Source: Anaerolineales bacterium (GTDB taxonomy: Bacteria > Chloroflexota > Anaerolineae > Anaerolineales > Villigracilaceae). From it: DNA of 64,000 nt. This document shows positions 1-14,528 of the stretch, in pieces (position 1 is the stretch's first letter; each line of letters begins with the position of its first letter). The translations under genes and the position numbers were made by a program. The stretch covers positions 1 through 64,000 of the forward strand of contig JACZJC010000049.1 in assembly GCA_014860745.1 (NCBI GenBank). The letters run 5' to 3'. The notes beneath the pieces are model-generated. The model was given only the letters and a program-made list of their open reading frames with translations, did not search any database and was not told the origin of the DNA.

Positions 1-480
1 CGCGCGGCGTGGGAGAAGAAGACGAATGAGTTCCGCACGCACGGCAAGGCGGAGCCGAAGCCGTTGATCATTGTGGTGGAGGAGGCGCATAAACTGCTCA
101 ACCGCGAAATGGCGGCGCAGACGACCTTTGCAACCATCGCGCGCGAGTTACGCAAATATTATGTGACGCTGTTGATCGTGGACCAGCGTCCGTCGCAAAT
201 TTATGATGAGGTGATGAGTCAGTTGGGCACGCGCATCAGCGGCTGGCTGGGAGATGACCTGGATATTCAGGCGGTGCTTTCGGGTCTTTCAGGGCGCGAC
301 TCCCTGCGCGGGATGCTGGCGCGTTTACAGCCAAAGGAAGAGGTGCTGCTGCTCGGTTGGGGCGTACCGATGCCGTTACCTGTGCGGTCACGAAGGTATG
401 ATGAGGCGTTTTGGAAGGAGATGAGCGGGGGAAAGAAAAGCCGCGAGGAGAGTTTGAAGGAGATGGGGTTTGGCGGGTAG
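1..480 (+). CDS. HerA/DUF87-like ATP-binding protein, C-terminal fragment (starts upstream of window)
   Basis: Open from the window edge; IIVVEEAHKLL (Walker B-like) and LLIVDQRPSQI motifs typical of HerA-type ATPases. Confidence 0.75.
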   Translation, partial: RAAWEKKTNEFRTHGKAEPKPLIIVVEEAHKLLNREMAAQTTFATIARELRKYYVTLLIVDQRPSQIYDEVMSQLGTRISGWLGDDLDIQAVLSGLSGRDSLRGMLARLQPKEEVLLLGWGVPMPLPVRSRRYDEAFWKEMSGGKKSREESLKEMGFGG

Positions 481-488
481 GTAGGTGT

Positions 489-506
489 TATAATCTTACT
501 GGTAAG
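489..506 (+). promoter_or_regulatory. Probable -10 box (TATAAT) plus adjacent inverted repeat CTTAC-TG-GTAAG upstream of antitoxin
   Basis: Read directly in sequence, about 14 nt before the AbrB-like ATG. Confidence 0.5.
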
Positions 507-519
507 AAAAGGAGAGATT

Positions 520-783
520 ATGGAAACCCTAGCCACCACCCGCATGTCATCGAAGGGACAGGTTGTCATCCCTGAAACGATTCGCAAACAACTCAAACTG
601 GAGGAAGGCGCGCAGTTTATTGTTGTCGGGAATGACGATGTCATTATCCTGAAAGCAATTGCCGTGCCAGACCTTGGTGAATTCGATGCGCTAATTCAAA
701 AAGCGCGCAAACAGGCGAAGGAATCAGGTTTGAAGCAGAAGGATATTAAGGCTGCCATTGCCAGGGTGCGGGGACGTAAATGA
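520..783 (+). CDS. AbrB/MazE/SpoVT-type antitoxin
   Basis: TTRMSSKGQVVIPETIRKQLKLEEGAQF: canonical AbrB swapped-hairpin motif. Confidence 0.9.
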   Translation: METLATTRMSSKGQVVIPETIRKQLKLEEGAQFIVVGNDDVIILKAIAVPDLGEFDALIQKARKQAKESGLKQKDIKAAIARVRGRK

Positions 784-1202
784 AGATCGTTCTGGATTTG
801 AAGGTGGTGATGGATACCAATGTGTTTGTCTCTGGTATCTTCTTTAGCGGGGCGCCGTATCAAGTCCTCAGGGCGTGGCAGTCGGGGGAATTTGAATTGG
901 TCGTTTCGCAGGAAATTTTGGAAGAATACAAGCGAGTGGGCGAAGCACTTGGGGAAGACCGCCCTGCCATAGACTGGAAACCAGTCTATGAATTTGTTTT
1001 GAAACATTCAAAAGTTTATAAACCTGTGAAGTTGAAGGAACCCGTTTGCGAAGACCCAGATGATGACAAGTTCTTTGCCTGCGCTCTGGCAAGTGGATGT
1101 GATGTCATTATCAGCGGAGACAAGCATTTGTTGAAGGTCTCTGGCTATCAGGGGATTGAGGTCTTGAAGCCAAGAGAGTTTTTGGATAGGTATTTGAAAT
1201 GA
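780..1202 (+). CDS. PIN-domain toxin (putative TA component, PIN family)
   Basis: VVMDTNVFVSGIFF...SGDKHLL...I..L.PREFL; ATGA overlap with antitoxin stop. Confidence 0.88.
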   Translation: MKIVLDLKVVMDTNVFVSGIFFSGAPYQVLRAWQSGEFELVVSQEILEEYKRVGEALGEDRPAIDWKPVYEFVLKHSKVYKPVKLKEPVCEDPDDDKFFACALASGCDVIISGDKHLLKVSGYQGIEVLKPREFLDRYLK

Positions 1203-1227
1203 ACGACACATCGAAACGAAATGATGT

Positions 1228-1362
1228 TTATCGGTATGACGAGTCGTTTTGGAAGGAGACCCCGCTAACGGGGGCAAGTGTGAGCGGGGGGAAGAAGTCT
1301 CGTGAGGAGAATTTGCCTGTCCCGTCGTAAGACGGGGAAGGAGTTGGGGTTTGGTGGGTAGG
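1228..1362 (+). pseudogene. Degenerate duplicate of the HerA-like C-terminal tail
   Basis: YDESFWKE..SGGKKSREENL..KELGFGG-stop parallels YDEAFWKEMSGGKKSREESLKEMGFGG-stop at 397-480; interrupted by two small hairpin insertions. Confidence 0.7.
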
Positions 1363-1449
1363 GGTTAGTATAAAATTTTGCTGACACCTTCAACAGATCG
1401 TATTCCTTTTGACATATAATAGGAGAAACTATCTCTGGGAGTAAAAGAT

Positions 1450-2961
1450 ATGGCAAAGAAAGCATCTCGGAAAGAAATTACTGCAATTAAGGTGACTCAA
1501 TGGCTTAGCGATTGGAAAAAAATCGAATTTTCAGAAGAGTCTTTTAGGCGCGAACCGCTCCCATATTTTTTTATATTTAAGATGGCTGCTAGTGATTTAA
1601 AAGCACTGTCAGGCATTCAAAAGCGGACTACTGATGGCGGTTTGCCTCGTTCCAGTGATTTTGGTATTCAAAGATTACATGATAAAAAACGTTCAGCTCT
1701 AATCAATGAATTTGTCAAATACGGTTATCCATGGTCCGAATTAAGTGAGAGTAAACGTGCTTCAGGAGATTTTGAAGATCTTCGAAAGCCTGGGTGGTTG
1801 CCGACTTCAATTGTGGTTAACATATTAGACCCAGAAGTAATGCGCCCTGGTCAAACTGTTTCTGAGAATGATCGATTATTGATAAAAAATGAAACCGAAG
1901 ATTTTGTAAAAATCTTGCTTCCAGAAGGATTTTCTGGGCGAAAATGGAAGCCCAGTGCTGAGTATCCTATAGAAGTTATTGATGGGCAACATCGTCTTTG
2001 GGCTTTTGAGAATGAAGATTACTCAGGAAATTTTGAACTTCCTGTTGTGGCGTTTTTTGGTTTGGATATCAGCTGGCAAGCTTATCTTTTTTGGACAATT
2101 AATATTAAACCAGTTCGGATTAATGCCAGCTTGGCATTTGATCTTTATCCATTACTTCGCACAGAAGATTGGCTTGAGAAATTTGAAGGTCCATCAATAT
2201 ATCGCGAGACAAGAGCTCAAGAATTAGTTGAGGCACTCTGGACATACTCAGAAAATCCTTGGTTTCAGAGAATCAATATGCTTGGCGAGACTGGAAAACC
2301 TTATGTGTCACAAGCTGCTTGGGTTAGGTCTTTAGTTGCTACATATATCAAGCCTTGGGAAAGCCGTAGATCTAGTGTTGGAGGTCTTTTTGGGGCGAAA
2401 TTAGGTAAAAATCAAACAGTGTTGCCATGGAACAGAACCCAACAAGCTGCATTCTTAATAATAATGTGGAGATCGATTGAGCAAGCGGTTGCTGCAAGTA
2501 AGGCTGATTGGGCGAAAAATTTGCGGAATGGTGCTCAAGAGTCTTACCTGCTATCTGTTGATGCTGCCTTTGGGAGTACAAATTCATTACTTAATACAGA
2601 TCAAGGTGTTCGTACGATTTTAAATATTACAAACGACTTGTTTTATATTAATTCTGATTTTTTGAAGCTGTCTCAATGGCAGATTGATAGTGATAACGAC
2701 ATCACTGTAGCTGTTGAGTCCCTTGAAAAAAATAAAACGATTGTGGGGTTTATGGAAAAATTAGCAACTGCTTTGAGCAAATATGATTGGCGGACTTCAA
2801 ACGCGCCGGGACTTTCTGAGGATCAAAGAACATTGAAATTAGCATTTAGAGGTAGTGGAGGCTACAAAGAATTAAGAAGGCAATTATTAAAACTTTTAGT
2901 GTCGGAAGCTGAACCAATTGGTAGGTCTGCGAAAGAGGTTATGAAAGCTTTGGGGTATTAA
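1450..2961 (+). CDS. DGQHR-domain protein (DndB-like family)
   Basis: Contains EVIDGQHRLWAF and FWTINIKPVRINASLAFDLYPLL. Confidence 0.85.
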   Translation: MAKKASRKEITAIKVTQWLSDWKKIEFSEESFRREPLPYFFIFKMAASDLKALSGIQKRTTDGGLPRSSDFGIQRLHDKKRSALINEFVKYGYPWSELSESKRASGDFEDLRKPGWLPTSIVVNILDPEVMRPGQTVSENDRLLIKNETEDFVKILLPEGFSGRKWKPSAEYPIEVIDGQHRLWAFENEDYSGNFELPVVAFFGLDISWQAYLFWTINIKPVRINASLAFDLYPLLRTEDWLEKFEGPSIYRETRAQELVEALWTYSENPWFQRINMLGETGKPYVSQAAWVRSLVATYIKPWESRRSSVGGLFGAKLGKNQTVLPWNRTQQAAFLIIMWRSIEQAVAASKADWAKNLRNGAQESYLLSVDAAFGSTNSLLNTDQGVRTILNITNDLFYINSDFLKLSQWQIDSDNDITVAVESLEKNKTIVGFMEKLATALSKYDWRTSNAPGLSEDQRTLKLAFRGSGGYKELRRQLLKLLVSEAEPIGRSAKEVMKALGY

Positions 2962-2964
2962 TAG

Positions 2965-4287
2965 ATGCTGACATTAAGTAACAATCAAACAAGCTATCTT
3001 AACAGGGCTTCTAGGAAGGCTGTGTCAGATATTTTTCAAAGAAAAAATGATCTTCGGAATGGTCGTTGGTTGGAACTGAATAATTCTTATTTAGTTAATA
3101 CAACAAGGAAGATCCATCAGGATTTCAATAGTAGCACATTAAATAATGCTGATTTAGGAGCATATATCAGCGTTTCTGCCCCGTTGCATTGTGTGGATGG
3201 ATGGGCATACCTTAGTCGTGCAGTCAGCGCTCTGTTGCACGGCGATATTAATGCTGCCCGGCACCTTGGTTATTACGCGGAACTGCGAGGAGCAATATCT
3301 ATTCTAGCGACCGAGGGAATAGCAATTTTAGAAAGAGATCATTTTGTTATAGATATTAATGAAAGATGTTCCAGAATACCTTGTAGCAATGGAACTCACG
3401 CAATTGTCTGGCCGGTATTTAAGCATTGGGCAAAGCAGGTAAATGCGGCAAATCTTATTGGGAAAATAATCGCACCATATGGCGTGAATCTTGTTGATTG
3501 GCACACAGTTTTTGCTTCAGGGACAACCTTTCCCGCAATTGCTGAAAACTGGCTGCTGAGCTGGGGATTAGATTTATCTCAATTGGATCTAGATCATGAT
3601 GCAAGAAACGAAGTTAGTTACAGACCATCCAGAATTTCTACATTTCTGCCCGTAGTCCCTCTCGAAATTTCATCTTTTATACTAGAGTTTTGGAATTTAT
3701 TCTCGCCATCTGGTATTTCACGATTTGGTGAGATAGATAGGTTTTTACTCAATAAAAGCTTGCAATTGGCATATAGTGCTTTGCCTGGCAACAAGACATA
3801 TGAAGATCGGGTCAGTGCAGCAACTTCAAATTTGTTTAATGACAAAGAACAAGCTGTAATTCAATCTATTTACCAATTTCTATCAGTAGATCAAGATGCA
3901 CTTGTATTAAGAGAAGCCAATACTCAAGATCCGTCAAGCCATCCGCGTCATGTATATCAATTACTTTCTCGCGCTGGGTTGTTACTTCGACTTGCCATTG
4001 GCGCAAATGCAGAGCTGATATTGTCCGCAGGTGTATCTAATTCTGATTTTGGCTTTTGGTGGAAGCAATTTGGACTCGATGCTGGTTTTTGGGGGTTAGG
4101 AGATGACCCAGCGAATCCTGATGAGATGTGGTTGGACGTTGAAAGTTCTATCACTGAGATTGGTGCATGGATGACACAAGCCGCAAACCCAACAATCAAT
4201 AAGATGTACATAGAAAACCATAATTCAAAACATTACTGGGTACTTAGCGGAACTGAACGCATTGCTATGTGGGGATTGTTCAAATGA
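2965..4287 (+). CDS. Uncharacterised 440 aa protein in DGQHR/methyltransferase cassette
   Basis: Long ORF starting 3 nt after the upstream stop; ATGA overlap with downstream methyltransferase. Confidence 0.8.
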   Translation: MLTLSNNQTSYLNRASRKAVSDIFQRKNDLRNGRWLELNNSYLVNTTRKIHQDFNSSTLNNADLGAYISVSAPLHCVDGWAYLSRAVSALLHGDINAARHLGYYAELRGAISILATEGIAILERDHFVIDINERCSRIPCSNGTHAIVWPVFKHWAKQVNAANLIGKIIAPYGVNLVDWHTVFASGTTFPAIAENWLLSWGLDLSQLDLDHDARNEVSYRPSRISTFLPVVPLEISSFILEFWNLFSPSGISRFGEIDRFLLNKSLQLAYSALPGNKTYEDRVSAATSNLFNDKEQAVIQSIYQFLSVDQDALVLREANTQDPSSHPRHVYQLLSRAGLLLRLAIGANAELILSAGVSNSDFGFWWKQFGLDAGFWGLGDDPANPDEMWLDVESSITEIGAWMTQAANPTINKMYIENHNSKHYWVLSGTERIAMWGLFK

Positions 4288-5423
4288 AATATATGGGCTC
4301 TAAGCGATCCATGCTCAAAAATGGGCTTGGTAAGCTTTTGCTAAGTGAAAGCAAGAAGCATGATCGTTTTGTTGACCTGTTTACAGGAGCGGCATTTGTA
4401 GCTCGATATGTTGCTGAGAATACAGATCGTCCAGTTTTGGCAGTTGATTTACAGAAGTACTCAACAGTTTTGGCGCAGGCTGTTATTGGGCGCACAGAAC
4501 AGATTGATTCGATTAGTTTGAAAGAAAATTGGATTGATGTTGCTGTTGCTCATCGTGACAAAGACTCATTGTGGCAAAAAGCTAACTTACATGACCAGAA
4601 CTTGAAAAAAACAAAAAAATGGGTCTTGGAAGCGCGTGAATTATGCGAGACGAAATCAAAGGTGGGTCCACTTTGGAATGCTTATGGTGGATATTACTTC
4701 AGCCCAACACAGGCTTTAACTTTTGATTATTTGTTAGCAAATTTGCCTGAAAAGAAGCAAGAAAGAGAACTCTGTTTAGCTGCTTGTATTACTGCTGCTA
4801 GTGAATGTGTCGCTGCGCCTGGGCATACTGCTCAACCGTTTCAGCCTACTGAAACAGCAAAGCCGTTTATTTTTGACGCTTGGAGACGTGATGCTGTTGA
4901 TTATGCAAAGAAAAATTTAGTTGAGTTATCTACTCATCATGCGCAAGTCAAAGGTAAGGCAATTACTAGTGACGCAGTTATGCAGATTAAGTATTTAAAT
5001 TCAAGCGACCTTGTGTTTATTGACCCGCCGTACTCTGGAGTGCAATACAGCCGCTTTTATCATGTGCTTGAAATTATGGCGCGTGGCGAAAAGAAAGTAA
5101 AGGTCGAGGGTGTTGGACGTTATCCTTCGATAGAGCAACGTCCTCAATCTAAGTTTAGTAATAACGGACAGGCAAAAGAAGCTCTTAAAACCTTACTCGA
5201 AAATTTAGCAGAGAAAAAGTGTACAGTTATTTTTACCTTTCCAAGTGGACAGGCAAGTAATGGATTGTCTGGTAATTATATAAAGGAAGTTGCTAGTGAG
5301 AATTTCAAAGTAAAAGATCATTCAACTGTAAGTGGCAGATTCAGTACGCTTGGCGGAAATAATACAGGTAGAGAAGCTAGGCAAGACTCTAGTGAATTGA
5401 TATTGTTGATGAAACCGAAATAA
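4284..5423 (+). CDS. DNA methyltransferase, D12/DPPY class (probable N6-adenine)
   Basis: MKYMGSKRSML start, DLFTGAAFVA (motif I-like), FIDPPYSGVQYSRFYH (motif IV DPPY). ORF track start 4269 is probably extended; ATG at 4284 overlaps upstream TGA. Confidence 0.88.
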   Translation: MKYMGSKRSMLKNGLGKLLLSESKKHDRFVDLFTGAAFVARYVAENTDRPVLAVDLQKYSTVLAQAVIGRTEQIDSISLKENWIDVAVAHRDKDSLWQKANLHDQNLKKTKKWVLEARELCETKSKVGPLWNAYGGYYFSPTQALTFDYLLANLPEKKQERELCLAACITAASECVAAPGHTAQPFQPTETAKPFIFDAWRRDAVDYAKKNLVELSTHHAQVKGKAITSDAVMQIKYLNSSDLVFIDPPYSGVQYSRFYHVLEIMARGEKKVKVEGVGRYPSIEQRPQSKFSNNGQAKEALKTLLENLAEKKCTVIFTFPSGQASNGLSGNYIKEVASENFKVKDHSTVSGRFSTLGGNNTGREARQDSSELILLMKPK

Positions 5424-5457
5424 AAAAGATGCTGGCAAATCCAGCGTCTTTTTTATT
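5422..5457. terminator. Bidirectional intrinsic terminator between convergent genes
   Basis: aaaaaGATGCTGGcaaatCCAGCGTCttttt. Confidence 0.75.
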
Positions 5458-5638
5458 ATTCTTCCAGCATGTCAGCAATAAATTCAATAACTTCTGGGCG
5501 GTCTTTGTAATCTCGTAGAAGTTTGACAATTGCATTTCCGAGGTAATAACCTTCTTCAATCCCATATTCGTTTTCGGGAATGAAGGTTTGAAATCTCATC
5601 ATTAAGACTTCTTGGGTGTCGGATTCTTGATTATCCAT
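5456..5638 (-). CDS. Small acidic hypothetical protein (60 aa)
   Basis: ORF immediately downstream of PRTase ORF on the same strand. Confidence 0.6.
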   Translation of the reverse strand: MDNQESDTQEVLMMRFQTFIPENEYGIEEGYYLGNAIVKLLRDYKDRPEVIEFIADMLEE

Positions 5639-5651
5639 TTGTGCCTCTTAA

Positions 5652-6344
5652 TTAGTAAACCCCATCCGCCTTTACCACTTCTGCTGATACTAATTCTTTT
5701 TCAGTTACACCCTGAACTATTCGCACATTATCCACAAAATCTTTGTGTACAGGTTGGCGATCTAACAATGTACATATCCCGACTACTCTAGCCCCAAAAT
5801 TATTTACGGTTTCCATTGTATCTTTTACAGTTCTAGTAGTTGTAATTGCATCTGTAATAATTAAGACTTTAGAACCTTTAGATAATTTTTCAAGCACCTC
5901 TGGACTTCCACTAATTTTTGCGTGAGATGCTCTTTTTCTTAACCTTGCAATTACTGCTGGTAAACCAGTTTGTGAAATGATTCCGCCCATAAGAGATATT
6001 GCTCCAATAGGTCCTGAATCTTTTTCGATAAAAATTAACCCATCTATGTCATCTGAAGACTTAAAGTCGTTCACAACTTCAACATACCAATTTGTTATTG
6101 ACGCAACCTCTTCGGGCACAGTTGTTAAATAGTCTAAGTTGAAATAGTATTTGCTAATTCCGCCTTTGTGAGTCAGCGTATGAGTACTTGATGTTATTGC
6201 TGGCTTTATCCAATTTAAATCAAAAAGCAGTCTCGCCTGTTGTAAGACAAATTGCCTTTTTTCAAACAAGACTAATATGCTTGCTATAGTTATTGCAGTT
6301 CCCCAAATGAAAGGGTTAAAGAATGTGCTAAATATGTCCATCAT
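5652..6344 (-). CDS. Membrane-anchored phosphoribosyltransferase-like protein
   Basis: N-terminal TM segment FFNPFIWGTAITIASILVLF; PRPP-loop-like VLIITDAITTTRTV; RBS AAGGAGG upstream. Confidence 0.8.
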   Translation of the reverse strand: MMDIFSTFFNPFIWGTAITIASILVLFEKRQFVLQQARLLFDLNWIKPAITSSTHTLTHKGGISKYYFNLDYLTTVPEEVASITNWYVEVVNDFKSSDDIDGLIFIEKDSGPIGAISLMGGIISQTGLPAVIARLRKRASHAKISGSPEVLEKLSKGSKVLIITDAITTTRTVKDTMETVNNFGARVVGICTLLDRQPVHKDFVDNVRIVQGVTEKELVSAEVVKADGVY

Positions 6345-6357
6345 ATATTACCTCCTT

Positions 6358-6453
6358 CTATTCTACGCCACTTTTTATTTCGAAAAATAATAAGAGCGTT
6401 GCTAATAATATTGCAATTACCCAAACTGCAGGATTTAGAAAAAAAGATAACAT
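6358..6453 (-). CDS. Unannotated 31-aa single-TM peptide MLSFFLNPAVWVIAILLATLLLFFEIKSGVE
   Basis: ATG with AGGTGAT RBS about 5 nt upstream; stop codon adjoins the PRTase RBS; sequence resembles the PRTase TM anchor. Confidence 0.6.
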   Translation of the reverse strand: MLSFFLNPAVWVIAILLATLLLFFEIKSGVE

Positions 6454-6462
6454 AATTATCAC

Positions 6463-6876
6463 CTATATCATAGAGACGCCAATACCTAGCGTTGCAATAC
6501 CAAGAACGTAACTTACCCATAGTCTCCAGCGTTGATTGCCGCGTTGTCTCTTATTTTGTTCGTAAGTCTTATAAAGAAATATGGCTAATATGTCAAAGAA
6601 GAACAAAGTGCTAAAGCTAAACAGACTTATTCCAACTATTGCTTGGATTGACTGGTCAGAAGAGTGTATTTTTAGCGCCGAATAAAACCTGGATGAATCG
6701 TCAAGTAATGCTGAAACAAAAAAAGAGATTCCGATAAACGCGAACTCAGCTCCAAACCTTCTAATATCTTCCCAAACTTTATTTTTATCGTGCTTGTAAA
6801 TCAACCAGCTCAATAAAATATGCCCAGCAGAGAGCAAAAAAGTTCCAACTAATATCTCTGACTTAATTTGCGACAT
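6463..6876 (-). CDS. Multi-pass membrane protein, unknown
   Basis: Several hydrophobic helices; likely start MSQIKSEILVG (ORF track start 6894). Confidence 0.65.
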   Translation of the reverse strand: MSQIKSEILVGTFLLSAGHILLSWLIYKHDKNKVWEDIRRFGAEFAFIGISFFVSALLDDSSRFYSALKIHSSDQSIQAIVGISLFSFSTLFFFDILAIFLYKTYEQNKRQRGNQRWRLWVSYVLGIATLGIGVSMI

Positions 6877-7330
6877 GTTCCCTCCCCTTATCAAACGCCA
6901 AATTGATATTCTTCAATTCCAGAGTGTATACATTTATTAGTTCACAAAGGGAATTATGTACATTCAGTTCATTTGGAACAATTACTGCTTCTCCAATTTC
7001 AATAAGAGTCTTGCCAATTTGTCGAAAAATATTATCTCGAGTATCGTACATAGTATTGTTATACCCGTTATCACCTGAGATGTTAAAAAAAATATCATCA
7101 ACTATTAAGTTCAGCATGAAAATTAGGCATCGTAGAGATTCGTCCTCAACATTTTTAAGTTTTTCTTGCAAGCTCCTTATTTCACCGCTTACAACTTGTG
7201 GATGTTTTTCTGAAATTAACAACAATCCTGTAGTAACTAATAATTCCCTAACAGCTTGGTTTTTCATTAGCGGCTTCGACCTCCCTTTTGGAGTGTTATT
7301 TATAGATCCAGCCCGATATTCATTGCCCAT
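6863..7330 (-). CDS. Hypothetical protein, first gene of minus-strand PRTase cassette
   Basis: ORF overlapping the downstream membrane-protein start; start codon uncertain (7330 or 7267). Confidence 0.6.
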   Translation of the reverse strand: MGNEYRAGSINNTPKGRSKPLMKNQAVRELLVTTGLLLISEKHPQVVSGEIRSLQEKLKNVEDESLRCLIFMLNLIVDDIFFNISGDNGYNNTMYDTRDNIFRQIGKTLIEIGEAVIVPNELNVHNSLCELINVYTLELKNINLAFDKGREHVAN

Positions 7331-7586: not shown

Positions 7587-7925
7587 ATGAAAGCAAAAGT
7601 CCCTGCCAAGATACGCAGACTCATGAAAGAGTTCAAGGAAGGGCTTGTCCGCATTTATGGGGATAAGCTTAAAGCCGTCTATTTATACGGCTCCTATGCG
7701 CGTGGGGATTACCGCGAGGGCTCGGATGTGGATGTGATGATTTTGCTGAAAAACTACAGGAATTATTGGAAAGAGCAAAGCAAGATCAGCCAGTTGGCAA
7801 GTGACATCTCTTTGGAGTATGAAGTTACTGTAAGTTGTATCTTCGTCAAAGAAATCCAATGGGAAACCACCAGCAATGAAAGACCTCTCATTTATAACAT
7901 CCGCAAAGAAGGGCTCCCTGCATGA
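7587..7925 (+). CDS. MNT-type minimal nucleotidyltransferase (HEPN/MNT TA antitoxin)
   Basis: VYLYGSYARGDYREGSDVDVMILL. Confidence 0.9.
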   Translation: MKAKVPAKIRRLMKEFKEGLVRIYGDKLKAVYLYGSYARGDYREGSDVDVMILLKNYRNYWKEQSKISQLASDISLEYEVTVSCIFVKEIQWETTSNERPLIYNIRKEGLPA

Positions 7926-8308
7926 AGGATTATTCCAGCAAGCTATTCAGCAAAGCGCAGGATGCCATTGAAGCGGCTGAAGCCTTATTGAATATCAATA
8001 AAGCAGAGTTTGCCGCAGGTCGCGCCTATTATGCGATGTTTTATGTTGCTGAGGCGTTGCTGTATAACGAATTCGATTTGAAATTCAGTCAGCATGGTCA
8101 AGTCATTGCGGCATATGGAAAGAACTTTGCCAAGACCAAAGCACTTGACCCAAAATTCCACCGTTGGATGCGTGATGGATTCGACAAGAGAATTACAGGC
8201 GATTATGGCGTGGATACGGGGATTGAGGATGAAATCGTATCTACGATGATAAATCAAGCGCGGGAGTTTATGTTGGTGGCGCAGAAGTATCTGAAAGACA
8301 AGGAATGA
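7922..8308 (+). CDS. HEPN-domain protein (toxin partner of MNT)
   Basis: FAAGRAYYAMFYVAEALL; ATGA overlap with MNT gene. Confidence 0.88.
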   Translation: MKDYSSKLFSKAQDAIEAAEALLNINKAEFAAGRAYYAMFYVAEALLYNEFDLKFSQHGQVIAAYGKNFAKTKALDPKFHRWMRDGFDKRITGDYGVDTGIEDEIVSTMINQAREFMLVAQKYLKDKE

Positions 8309-8538: not shown

Positions 8539-8583
8539 GAGAACACTGGGATGAATGTCCCAGTGTTTTTGATTTGGGTGGAA
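8539..8583 (+). repeat. REP-like hairpin copy 2
   Basis: GAGAACACTGGGATGAATGTCCCAGTGTTTTTGATTTGGGTGG. Confidence 0.85.
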
Positions 8584-9068
8584 TGTCCGCGTGATGGGGG
8601 AAGGGGCGATATCATACCCTTTGGGTACCCGTCAGGGCAGATGGATGAATTGTCGGGGAAACCGTCTATGCAAGAGGGGATGGTGGATGGCGATGGGTGG
8701 GTCCGCCCTTACGGTGACCACGTCATTTATAATTTCGTCATGACGAAATTCGACCCGCAAAATACCCCTTCGGGGCACTTGCATCATCGTCGCTCCATTC
8801 GATTGAAAGGATATGATTACGCACAAGCAGGCGCGTATTATGTCACCATTGTGGCGTGGCGAAGAGATTTCTTGTTTGGGGAGGTTGTGAACGGGGAAAT
8901 GATATTGAACGAGCACGGTCTAATTGCAGATGGGTGTTGGCGCGAAATTCCAAAGCATTTTCCACATGTGGAATTGGGGGCGTATGTCGTTATGCCCAAT
9001 CATGTGCATGCAATTATCGTTATTAATCCTATGGGTGAAAATCGGATTGCGACAAATACATCGCAATC

Positions 9069-9098
9069 CGTAGGGGCGAGGCATGCCTCGCCCCTACG
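9069..9098. repeat. 30-bp perfect palindrome (GTAGGGGCG... family) inside the RAYT ORF
   Basis: CGTAGGGGCGAGGCATGCCTCGCCCCTACG. Confidence 0.9.
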
Positions 9099-9213
9099 CC
9101 CACGCGGGGCATCATCAGGTTCATTGGGTGCAATCGTCGGGTCTTTTAAATCCGCTGTGACAAAACGAATCGGACGCGAATTGAACGAAACAGGTATCTG
9201 GCAGCGCAATTAT

Positions 9214-9240
9214 GGAGCCTGCCCTGAGCCTGTCGAAGGG
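9214..9240. repeat. Insertion of GCCTGCCCTGAGCCTGTCGAAGGG repeat, breaking the RAYT frame
   Basis: Near-identical unit GCCTGCCCTGAGCTTGCCGAAGGG also at about 45073-45096. Confidence 0.8.
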
Positions 9241-9350
9241 AACACATCATCCGCGATGAGAAGGATTTGCAGAATAAAACGGATTACATTGAGGCGAATC
9301 CGCTTTTGTGGGATGAAGATGACGAGAATCCAGCCAATATAAAATAACCC

Positions 9351-11400: not shown

Positions 11401-12066
11401 ATGCTTATCTTTTTGATACTCGCGTTCGTTTTTGCCGCGCTCGAAGCGCTGGCATTGCACAAAAACTGGTTCAAGCTCGAAGTCATTGCCAAGCCGGGTG
11501 TGATGGTTTTTCTCTTTCTCTGGCTCTGGCTGTCCGCTGGGCTGGATGGCGCACTGCTGTGGTTCGGGCTTGGGATTCTTCTATCCGTCACAGGGGATGT
11601 GCTGCTGATGATCTCGCTGGATAAATTTTTCCTCGCGGGGCTGGTTGCATTCCTGCTCGCGCACATCGCCTACATTGTCGGATTCAATATCCCCATCCCG
11701 CAGATGAACTTCTTCGGGGTCGTCTTTGCCGTGATGATCGGCATTGGCGGGGCGCGGGTCATCCGCCGCATTCTGGACCGTCTGCCTGGCAGTGGAAACG
11801 AGCGGATGCGCCTCCCGATCATTGTCTACAGCACCGTCATTTCCGTGATGCTGCTCTCCGCGATGTTGAAACTCGTGGATATTTCATGGGATGCCAGCGC
11901 CGCCCTCCTCGTCAGCCTTGGCGCGTTCCTGTTCTATCTCTCAGATATTATCCTCGCCTGGAACAAGTTCGTCGCGCCCATCCAGGGCGGGCGAATCTAC
12001 AACATCGCCGCCTATCACCTCGGACAGATCGCCTTGATCGCAGGGGTGATCGCTCAATTCGGCTGA
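11401..12066 (+). CDS. YhhN family (lysoplasmalogenase-like) membrane protein
   Basis: YhhN-like TM pattern, GDVLLM, FLLAHIAYIVGF. Confidence 0.8.
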   Translation: MLIFLILAFVFAALEALALHKNWFKLEVIAKPGVMVFLFLWLWLSAGLDGALLWFGLGILLSVTGDVLLMISLDKFFLAGLVAFLLAHIAYIVGFNIPIPQMNFFGVVFAVMIGIGGARVIRRILDRLPGSGNERMRLPIIVYSTVISVMLLSAMLKLVDISWDASAALLVSLGAFLFYLSDIILAWNKFVAPIQGGRIYNIAAYHLGQIALIAGVIAQFG

Positions 12067-12161
12067 TAAGCTGCGCCGTCCATTGCTTGTGAACAATCTG
12101 TAATCTTTCCAGCGCGTTAACTCAGGTATCATCCACGAAATCTAAAAACAAAGGAAGAAGA

Positions 12162-12596
12162 ATGCAGCCTGTTTTCTTTATTATTTTGGTCGGTTTGATG
12201 GGTGGGATGGCAATCGGGGTGCAAAGCCCCATGTCCAGCATTATCAGTCAGCGTTTGGGGATGATCGAAAGCTCGTTCATCATCCACGCCAGCGGAGCGA
12301 TTGCAGCCTTGATTCCGCTTTTAGTTTTTGGCAACAAGCTCGGCGAATGGCGAAGCGTCCCGTGGTATGTGTTGGGGGCGGGCGCGTTTGGTCTCGTGGT
12401 CATTTCGTCCATGGGATATATGATTCCCCGCATCGGCGTTTCAGGCGCATTGATCACCCTGCTGGCGGGTCAATTGCTGGTTGGTTCATTCCTCGATCAT
12501 TTTGGTCTCTTGGGCGTTGCCCAGCGAACTGTGGACCTTCAGCGCATTATCGGTCTGGGTGTGGTCATGCTGGGTGTCTGGCTGACGGTGAAATGA
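12162..12596 (+). CDS. DMT-type membrane transporter, DUF606/YdcZ-like
   Basis: GMAIGVQSPMSSIISQRLG...LGAGAFGLVVISS. Confidence 0.75.
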   Translation: MQPVFFIILVGLMGGMAIGVQSPMSSIISQRLGMIESSFIIHASGAIAALIPLLVFGNKLGEWRSVPWYVLGAGAFGLVVISSMGYMIPRIGVSGALITLLAGQLLVGSFLDHFGLLGVAQRTVDLQRIIGLGVVMLGVWLTVK

Positions 12597-12604
12597 AATC
12601 TTTC

Positions 12605-12642
12605 AAACAAAAAGGACACGCATATGCGTGTCCTTTTTGTTT
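12605..12642. terminator. 38-bp perfect palindrome, bidirectional terminator between convergent genes
   Basis: AAACAAAAAGGACACGCATATGCGTGTCCTTTTTGTTT. Confidence 0.85.
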
Positions 12643-12653
12643 GGTAGTCGTTG

Positions 12654-14528
12654 CTACAACGTCACAATGTATTGATGGATCAGATGCGCGTATCGATTCT
12701 GCAAACGGATGAAGTGGTTCTGGATCGCGTCCGCTTCGGAGCCTTCGAGCACGAGGAACTTTCCGCGTTCCACACCGTTTCGCGCGATCTCGCGGCAGAC
12801 CGCCTCAGTGACCAGCTCTGCCAATAGCACCTGACCCTGCACGGTGGTATCGAGGCGGTTGTTTTCATCCAGATAGATCTTTACCGAAGGCGCGCCTGTC
12901 GCAATGACGATGCTTGAGTTTACGCGGTCAAAATAAACACGCTGGCGTGAATCGGTGCGGTCATCAAAACGGATGTCAGTGAAGAGCGCGTTGTTGCTGC
13001 GGGTGGGCGGGGGAGCCAGCGCCTCCTTCTTGGAATGCACCTGCACCATCGCTTCGGCGCGCAGCCTGCCGACGTACGCCGTAACCATGCCTTCGCTGCC
13101 CACCTGCCTGCCTTCCACGCGGATGCGCGCTTCTCCGATGGTCGGGTCATTTTTGTGCGGTTGAATCACCACCTGCGGGGTGGAGATAATGATTTCAGGG
13201 TTATTCGAGATGACGGTGACTGTTGCGCCAGCGCGCGCTTTCTCTGCAATGTCCACGCGCAAGACCAAATTAAGGTGCTGACCTGTTTGCACAAAAGCGC
13301 GTTCGGGGAAGAAGCCAATTCCAGAAGGCGGCAGTTCGATCACCTTTTGCGTGCCGTCAGTTCTTCTATCGCTCAACTCACTTAATGCGATCGTGTTCAA
13401 CTCATGCAAGGCATGGTCTATTTTTTGGCGCAGTTGTTTATCCAGCTTGGTTTGTTCATCATGCACGGCATGTTTGCGCTCGGCTTCGATCAGCGGCTCG
13501 AGTTTGCTCTCCACAGCCAGCTTCAACGCCTTTGCAAATGGATGCGTCCAGTTGATGCCGTCGCGGGTCGCGGTCAACACGGGTTCATCGTTCTTCAACA
13601 GGTCGTGCAAATAATCGCATTGCATCGAGCCGTAAAAATATGCGGCGTAGGGGTCATTCTCGAACTTGAGCATGGTCAGCGAGATCACGGTCGCCTTGCT
13701 GATGACCAGCAGCCCGCCGTCTGCGTAATCGCCTTCCTCGCTGCGGGTGGAAAGTTGAATCCCCGACCGAAAGACATCCAGTTTCACTGTGGCAGGAAAG
13801 CCCTCCACTTTGATCCTCTCGCTCAGGACTTTTTCGCCTCGCGGTGACTTGTAGCTGAGAACATGTTCCTGACGCAGTTTCCCATCTGGGGCAATATCCC
13901 GCAAAATGATCTTGCGGCGCGGGTTGCTCATGATCGGGCGCAATTCAAAATGTCTCTGCAAATAGTTGCGGAAGTTGTCGAACTGCGGCACTTTCACATC
14001 GCCGCGCGAGATGTGAATCTCAAGGATCGTCCCATTGCCTTCTGGAACTTCATACTGCTGGCGCAGCGGAACGGTAGCCCGCACGGGTTCGTCAAGGTCA
14101 AAGGTGGGAATGCCTTTTTTGATGAGCAGGGAGCAGGTGTAGAAATTTCCGCCTTTGAAGGAGCGCACATAGCCATGCCCGAGCCCGAAGATGGAATCTT
14201 TCAGCCCGCGCCCCCACATCCCGCGGACATGTTTATCTTCCTTCAAGCCGCTGGTCGCTTCGCCGTAGGTGCCGACGACTTTGTCCATGCGAATATCGGT
14301 CATACCTTCGGCGTGGTCCCGCACGCGGATGATGGAATTCTTGTGCTTCCTTTGCACGTCAATAATGATCTCGCCGCCCACCGACCAACCCGCCTGTTCA
14401 AGGCGGGAATAACTGTCATTGCAATTGGTAATGACCTCCACCAGCGCGCGGAACACATCCTTGCGAATCGCCTGGTCTGCCTGCTGCAGGGCAACACGGT
14501 CTGCATACTGTAACTTTCTACTGCTCAC
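12654..14528 (-). CDS. GHKL (Hsp90/MutL/MORC-like) ATPase-domain protein with C-terminal Ig-like region
   Basis: RALVEVITNCNDSYSR, IRVRDHAEGM, MWGRGLKDSIFGLG (Bergerat fold motifs). GTG start at 14528 with AGGAAAGG upstream preferred; ORF-track extension to 14615 is repeat DNA. Confidence 0.72.
   Translation of the reverse strand: MSSRKLQYADRVALQQADQAIRKDVFRALVEVITNCNDSYSRLEQAGWSVGGEIIIDVQRKHKNSIIRVRDHAEGMTDIRMDKVVGTYGEATSGLKEDKHVRGMWGRGLKDSIFGLGHGYVRSFKGGNFYTCSLLIKKGIPTFDLDEPVRATVPLRQQYEVPEGNGTILEIHISRGDVKVPQFDNFRNYLQRHFELRPIMSNPRRKIILRDIAPDGKLRQEHVLSYKSPRGEKVLSERIKVEGFPATVKLDVFRSGIQLSTRSEEGDYADGGLLVISKATVISLTMLKFENDPYAAYFYGSMQCDYLHDLLKNDEPVLTATRDGINWTHPFAKALKLAVESKLEPLIEAERKHAVHDEQTKLDKQLRQKIDHALHELNTIALSELSDRRTDGTQKVIELPPSGIGFFPERAFVQTGQHLNLVLRVDIAEKARAGATVTVISNNPEIIISTPQVVIQPHKNDPTIGEARIRVEGRQVGSEGMVTAYVGRLRAEAMVQVHSKKEALAPPPTRSNNALFTDIRFDDRTDSRQRVYFDRVNSSIVIATGAPSVKIYLDENNRLDTTVQGQVLLAELVTEAVCREIARNGVERGKFLVLEGSEADAIQNHFIRLQNRYAHLIHQYIVTL

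Follow-up and report, generated by a model that had tools for sequence, protein, structure and literature searches.

A conserved DGQHR-MID gene pair with exchangeable DNA-modifying partners as a candidate modification-linked self/nonself system in an Anaerolineales bacterium

The 64,000-nucleotide stretch of an Anaerolineales bacterium analyzed here (GenBank assembly GCA_014860745.1, contig JACZJC010000049.1, positions 1 to 64,000; hereafter the window) carries on its plus strand a three-gene cassette, formed by a DGQHR/DndB-like gene (1450..2961, 503 amino acids, aa), a gene for a novel all-helical protein denoted MID that always adjoins the DGQHR gene (2965..4287, 440 aa), and a gene for a D12-class DNA adenine N6-methyltransferase (MTase) denoted type A (4284..5423). 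The first two genes are separated by a gap of 3 nucleotides (2962-2964), and those of MID and the MTase share an ATGA overlap (4284-4287). As called mechanically, the MTase open reading frame opens at GTG 4269, its true start being likely ATG 4284 (MKYMGSK...), which gives a protein of 379 aa. An intrinsic terminator (5419..5457) closes the cassette, with an RNA fold of -21.3 kcal/mol and z = -7.5 relative to shuffled sequences; it is near-symmetric and probably bidirectional, so it can also serve a converging minus-strand gene. This packing of three genes ended by a terminator, already described in a first-pass annotation of the locus, was confirmed, and the DGQHR-MID pair recurs in this order in 38 of the 38 loci where it could be tested.

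The DGQHR protein contains EVIDGQHRLWAF at residues 175-186 and displays QR (74-75), DGQHR (178-182) and FxxxN (214-218) motifs, the set that ties DGQHR/DndB proteins to the ParB/Srx fold according to passages of PMC4619093. In NCBIfam, TIGR03187 matches it with E 4e-14 and 53.0 bits, under the cut-off of 58.85, and TIGR04172 with E 4e-14 and 52.6 bits against a cut-off of 450, while PF14072 reaches 17 against a cut-off of 29.1, so by score the protein is not DndB proper. Both TIGR03187 and TIGR04172 are matched by all 38 DGQHR homologues, and the three motifs are invariant in 37-38 of the 38. Judged from these motifs, the protein is a member of the DGQHR/DndB (ParB/Srx) superfamily. The DpdB profile NF041060 (cut-off 300 bits) does not match the window protein and weakly matches 23 of the 38 homologues (best member, E 4.2e-10), and the structure model of the DGQHR protein found no Foldseek match in pdb at E<=0.001.

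MID, which the first-pass annotation had been unable to assign, indeed was matched to no family by sequence searches of Pfam, NCBIfam, PADLOC, PHROGs and PDB, and family-wide searches, going beyond the single sequence, were equally empty in Pfam and PDB. Its AlphaFold (AF2) model is all helical (pLDDT 89.7, pTM 0.92), and Foldseek comparisons with solved structures and with viral models found nothing similar at E<=0.001. An alignment of 40 rows contains 19 invariant columns, and the invariant residues include H75, D78, H100, Y103, Y104, R108, T144, H145, R214, N215, Y219 and R336, whose conservation suggests a putative active or ligand site.

The third protein is matched by PF02086 (Pfam, E 7.6e-18) and by MTase_II of PADLOC (E 2.8e-24), and bears a DPPYSGV motif; DPPY is retained in 25 of 25 type-A MTases, as expected for the adenine MTases of type II restriction-modification (RM) systems. 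A cognate nuclease beside the MTase is found only in one relative (L034, described below), and a library profile scan of the genes at 64-7330 of the window found no nuclease family, the PIN-domain toxin described below excepted. The sulfurtransferase gene dndC (TIGR03183), required for Dnd phosphorothioation, was not found in the whole host genome. The idea of a GATC-marked promoter was also considered and discarded, the upstream regions showing 30 GATC against 38 expected and hence no enrichment.

The MID set was assembled by scanning a genome collection and viral sequences once each, by searching plasmids and by adding relatives, yielding 40 rows and 39 distinct loci, since L002 and L013, at zero distance and with identical layout, were counted as one genome. 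Hosts belong to Chloroflexota, Pseudomonadota, Actinomycetota, Cyanobacteria, Planctomycetota, Nitrospina, Spirochaetes, Bacteroidetes, Ignavibacteriae, KSB1, Verrucomicrobia and others, together with the archaeon Methanoregula. Conserved co-occurrence had been set beforehand as a test of the proposal, and the neighborhood check showed total DGQHR-MID linkage, the DGQHR gene standing directly upstream of MID in all 38 testable loci (L005, whose contig begins at MID, was left out of this count). The reverse search, from DGQHR, found MID adjoining in 10 of the 10 full-length loci besides the window, nine viral ones, three of which repeat earlier loci, and G166. The DGQHR family is rare, with the full-length protein in 2 of 400 Chloroflexota genomes.

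The modifying partner, on the contrary, changes. Over the 39 loci, 24 have a type A MTase, 7 a type B MTase, 4 Dnd/Pbe genes, 1 an MT-A70 MTase with a BglII-type nuclease, and 3 no visible partner. Type A and type B MTases stand downstream of the DGQHR-MID pair, the nearest solved relatives of type B being DpnM (2dpm, E 9e-52) and E. coli Dam, whose GLYRVN/FNVP motifs are kept. In Pseudanabaena (L010, L011) the pair sits between pbe genes and dndC, dndD and dndE, the dndC of L011 being the sulfurtransferase gene; in Methanoregula (L014) it adjoins PbeA, PbeC and DndA, and L012, with a cysteine desulfurase at the contig end, was counted with this group. The link to Dnd systems is therefore stronger than the first-pass annotation had proposed. 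In L034 (588-5283) an MT-A70 MTase and a BglII-family nuclease lie directly upstream of MID and of a DGQHR gene with a frameshift that may be an assembly error. No partner is visible in L015, L024 and L028; L028 stops at the contig end, and the L024 genome has two Dam-like MTases elsewhere, none of them adjoining the pair. The tree of DGQHR plus MID requires at least 7 partner changes among the groups type A, type B, phosphorothioation and none, and on it type B does not form a single clade. Distances of DGQHR and MID correlate with r 0.88, and those of either protein with the MTase at 0.66-0.68, while the MID-to-MTase junction is -4 or -1 in 23 of 25 type-A rows. Considering the partner swaps, the changes along the tree, the distance correlations and the conservation of the junction, DGQHR-MID is the fixed core of these loci, and the enzyme that makes the mark is the part that is exchanged. 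A role of MID as specificity factor of the MTase, one of those initially contemplated, becomes less likely, because the modification enzyme varies and MID does not.

Other DGQHR families likewise accompany adenine MTases. An Acinetobacter plasmid (L041, 2062-5051) and a Roseateles plasmid (L042, 4263-6813) both carry an MTase, a membrane protein and a DGQHR protein in this order, with the membrane protein in the place of MID; in L041 the MTase, matched by the type-A profile at E 9e-42, lies beside a BglII/BstYI nuclease, a kind of enzyme whose sites are AGATCT and RGATCY. In the Chloroflexota loci L089, L091, L092 and L094, a protein of ~770 aa joining PD-(D/E)XK, DGQHR and HEPN-like parts is encoded beside an adenine MTase, Dam-like by profile in L089 and L091 and MT-A70-like by eye in L092 and L094. 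Its DGQHR core aligns with the window family at E 1.8e-23, and its C-terminus is HEPN-like (HEPN_Swt1 E 0.005; PDC-M34B) with an RNRVxH-type motif. The pair looks like a compact RM-type system, and the company kept by these families favors a role beside restriction or effector functions over pure gene control. The possibility that MID has its counterpart in the HEPN-like C-terminus of the 770-aa proteins was tried, and hhalign did not support it.

The DGQHR-MID-MTase set is conserved and mobile across scattered bacteria and archaea. GC content is lower in the core than in the flanks in 37 of 40 rows, loci are borne by plasmids (L003, L004, L011) and viral contigs (L036-L040, L075-L083), integrases or resolvases are neighbors in L003, L020, L025, L027 and L038, and type I RM genes in L025 and L030. 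N6/N4 MTase and ResIII-helicase genes adjoin L035, and in L015 (790-3395) a retron-type reverse transcriptase with a PRTase-CE protein lies directly upstream of the pair. One viral locus (L080, 5989-11734) is decayed, its DGQHR gene frameshifted, its MID split by about 1.7 kb and its MTase intact, a pattern that recalls a locus which has shed its restricting part but kept the protector. Downstream of the Zymomonas plasmid cassette, L004 also has a DUF4433 and macro-domain pair (11851-13601) that is DarTG-like.

The surroundings in the window agree with the AT-rich stretch beside toxin-antitoxin and RAYT genes initially described. The cassette has about 39-42% GC against 53-55% further along the window; an AbrB/MazE-type antitoxin and PIN-domain toxin pair (520-1202) lies just upstream, and a gene judged RAYT-like by eye is found at 8551-9342. 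On the minus strand, a membrane-anchored phosphoribosyltransferase-domain protein and two unassigned genes (5652-7330) converge on the cassette terminator, this being the most AT-rich stretch (35-37% GC). A nucleotidyltransferase-like gene with a PF05168 HEPN gene (7587-8308) makes a probable MNT-HEPN pair.

The explanation to which we give about an even chance of being right is a self/nonself system based on DNA modification, where the reader/effector would be DGQHR-MID and the exchangeable self-marker the MTase. Its observed part comprises the linkage, the partner swapping, the intact signature motifs and the surroundings, which are of mobile or defense kind. In such a system the MTase would mark adenines at a short site in the DNA of host and element, and the DGQHR protein, a DndB relative of ParB/Srx type that is probably a switch binding NTP, would join MID in a complex as the constant part of the machine. 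DGQHR-MID would then sample DNA and, where the mark is absent, MID, with or without DGQHR, would act on the invader or on the cell, with an anti-phage effect. Use of nucleoside triphosphates (NTP) by the pair is inferred because a DndB-like protein binds ATP/GTP (PMC12704722); passages of PMC10853773 group DndB in the ParB superfamily, which has NTPase and nuclease members. Since one pair adjoins enzymes of methylation as well as of phosphorothioation, what it reads is probably whether a site carries a mark, and not one particular chemistry. Several observations weigh against such a system: the window cassette and most relatives have no nuclease, MID has no recognized catalytic motif and is absent from the defense library PADLOC, and L024 keeps the pair with no adjoining MTase, while in L015 no MTase can be seen, which means that lack of a linked marker does not always make the pair lethal.

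A more specific version, which we hold as doubtful, would make DGQHR-MID a chemistry-blind reader/effector policing one class of sites, probably GATC-containing, that the host methylates (type A, type B or MT-A70) or phosphorothioates, with MID as a new all-helical effector fold. A common GATC-type site is suggested because type B resembles GATC enzymes, BglII/BstYI nucleases accompany relatives, and the haloarchaeal Dnd-Pbe modifies GATC (PMC6459918). The methylome reported for Zymomonas ZM4, considered as a natural check on the type B MTase, contains CAGN4CTG, GAAGN7TCC and GANTC and no GATC, for an isolate that may or may not carry the 30.9-kb plasmid pZZM405 (PMC8432527).

The main rival, possible though on the unlikely side, is that DGQHR-MID serves the modification enzyme by regulating, loading or targeting it, the outcome being only a DNA mark that would help to control genes or to protect mobile elements against restriction by the host. 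In its favor, DndB is an experimentally described repressor of dnd (passages of PMC4507180) and DpdB an ATPase of the step that inserts dPreQ0 (passages of PMC12839542); moreover, it requires no nuclease, the pair adjoins modification genes across all chemistries, and several loci are prophage- or plasmid-borne. Nonetheless, no shared operator-like inverted repeat was seen upstream in the loci inspected, the pair exceeds in size the enzyme it would serve, the control proteins of Dpd and Dnd keep to one chemistry while DGQHR-MID moves among several, and restriction nucleases accompany DGQHR-MID in L034 and other DGQHR families. Far below it, an ordinary solitary MTase with two unrelated neighbors is hardly credible: orphan adenine MTases are common and the window has no dedicated nuclease, yet the total DGQHR-MID linkage and the overlapping MID-MTase junctions across many phyla contradict it.

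Improbable, although with a lead of its own, is an abortive or toxin-like arrangement, with MID as a HEPN-like RNase or nucleotide-acting effector that would be released when a phage disturbs methylation or binds DGQHR, and the MTase or its product as safety catch. The N-terminal half of MID is perhaps HEPN-like: the family-consensus helix HAARHLGYYAELRAALSILASEGI is similar to RAYYAMFYAA, a helix of PF05168 proteins, the motifs after it come in the order seen there, and both the succession of helices and the invariant RNxxSY, akin to R..xDY, recall that family. HEPN proteins rank 1, 2 and 5-8 of 237 single-sequence comparisons with MID, all at one helix (Mann-Whitney P 5e-5), the resemblance having been spotted before testing and the alignment spanning this helix only. 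The HEPN-like C-terminus of the 770-aa proteins and the replacement of MID by a membrane protein in two distant MTase-DGQHR loci point in the same direction. On the contrary, profile comparison by hhalign is weak (25% probability, P 8e-4; 0.018 for the reversed control and about 0.3-0.7 for unrelated profiles), Foldseek gave no convincing match, and MID has no RX4-6H motif of HEPN RNases, its Tyr219, invariant in 40 of 40 rows, taking the place of the histidine. The resemblance is treated as a lead.

Returning to the self/nonself system, each known relative shares part of it. With Dnd/DndB (PF14072, TIGR04172) the set has in common the DGQHR and ParB/Srx-type motifs, as well as the position of the Pseudanabaena pair upstream of dndC, dndD and dndE, but the window protein scores under the DndB cut-offs, its genome has no dndC, the marker is an MTase, and MID is added, which is unreported in canonical dnd operons. 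Three cyanobacterial and archaeal relatives adjoin PbeA and PbeC of DndCDEA-PbeABCD (CxC ABC-ATPase/DndE), whereas most relatives, window included, have no Pbe gene nearby and the published PbeABCD has no DGQHR-MID; CxC systems can use methylases in place of sulfur, according to passages of PMC10853773. DpdB of the 7-deazaguanine Dpd system also combines a DGQHR domain with a modification enzyme and is echoed by the weak NF041060 matches, but scores lie far under its cut-off and the partner here is an MTase. Type II RM systems of the DpnII and BglII/BstYI kinds are approached through the type B MTase, the L034 nuclease and the L041 MTase, and differ from the window cassette, which has no nuclease and two extra conserved genes. 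GmrSD/SspE (DUF262 with a DGQQR motif, plus HNH) has a related ParB/Srx-type motif set in the passages of PMC4619093, but the window set has MID as partner and no HNH domain, and GmrSD attacks modified DNA.

No exact match to a named system was found. In the parts of the literature covered by the search, with subscription papers and preprints outside its scope, no description of a DGQHR-MID-modification trio was found, and it does not appear in the available passages of reviews on Dnd and BREX-type systems. The set is rated as an undescribed form of modification-linked system with a new protein family, MID. From the initial proposal of an undescribed DNA-modification or defense system, the conserved, mobile, undescribed and modification-linked character stands, while defense is still inferred. 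If the self/nonself explanation is true, one conserved protein pair would have become associated with phosphorothioation as well as with several families of methyltransferases, MID would be a new protein family in modification-linked immunity, and the role of DndB-like DGQHR proteins, whether controlling or reading the mark, would become directly testable with the three-gene methyltransferase version.

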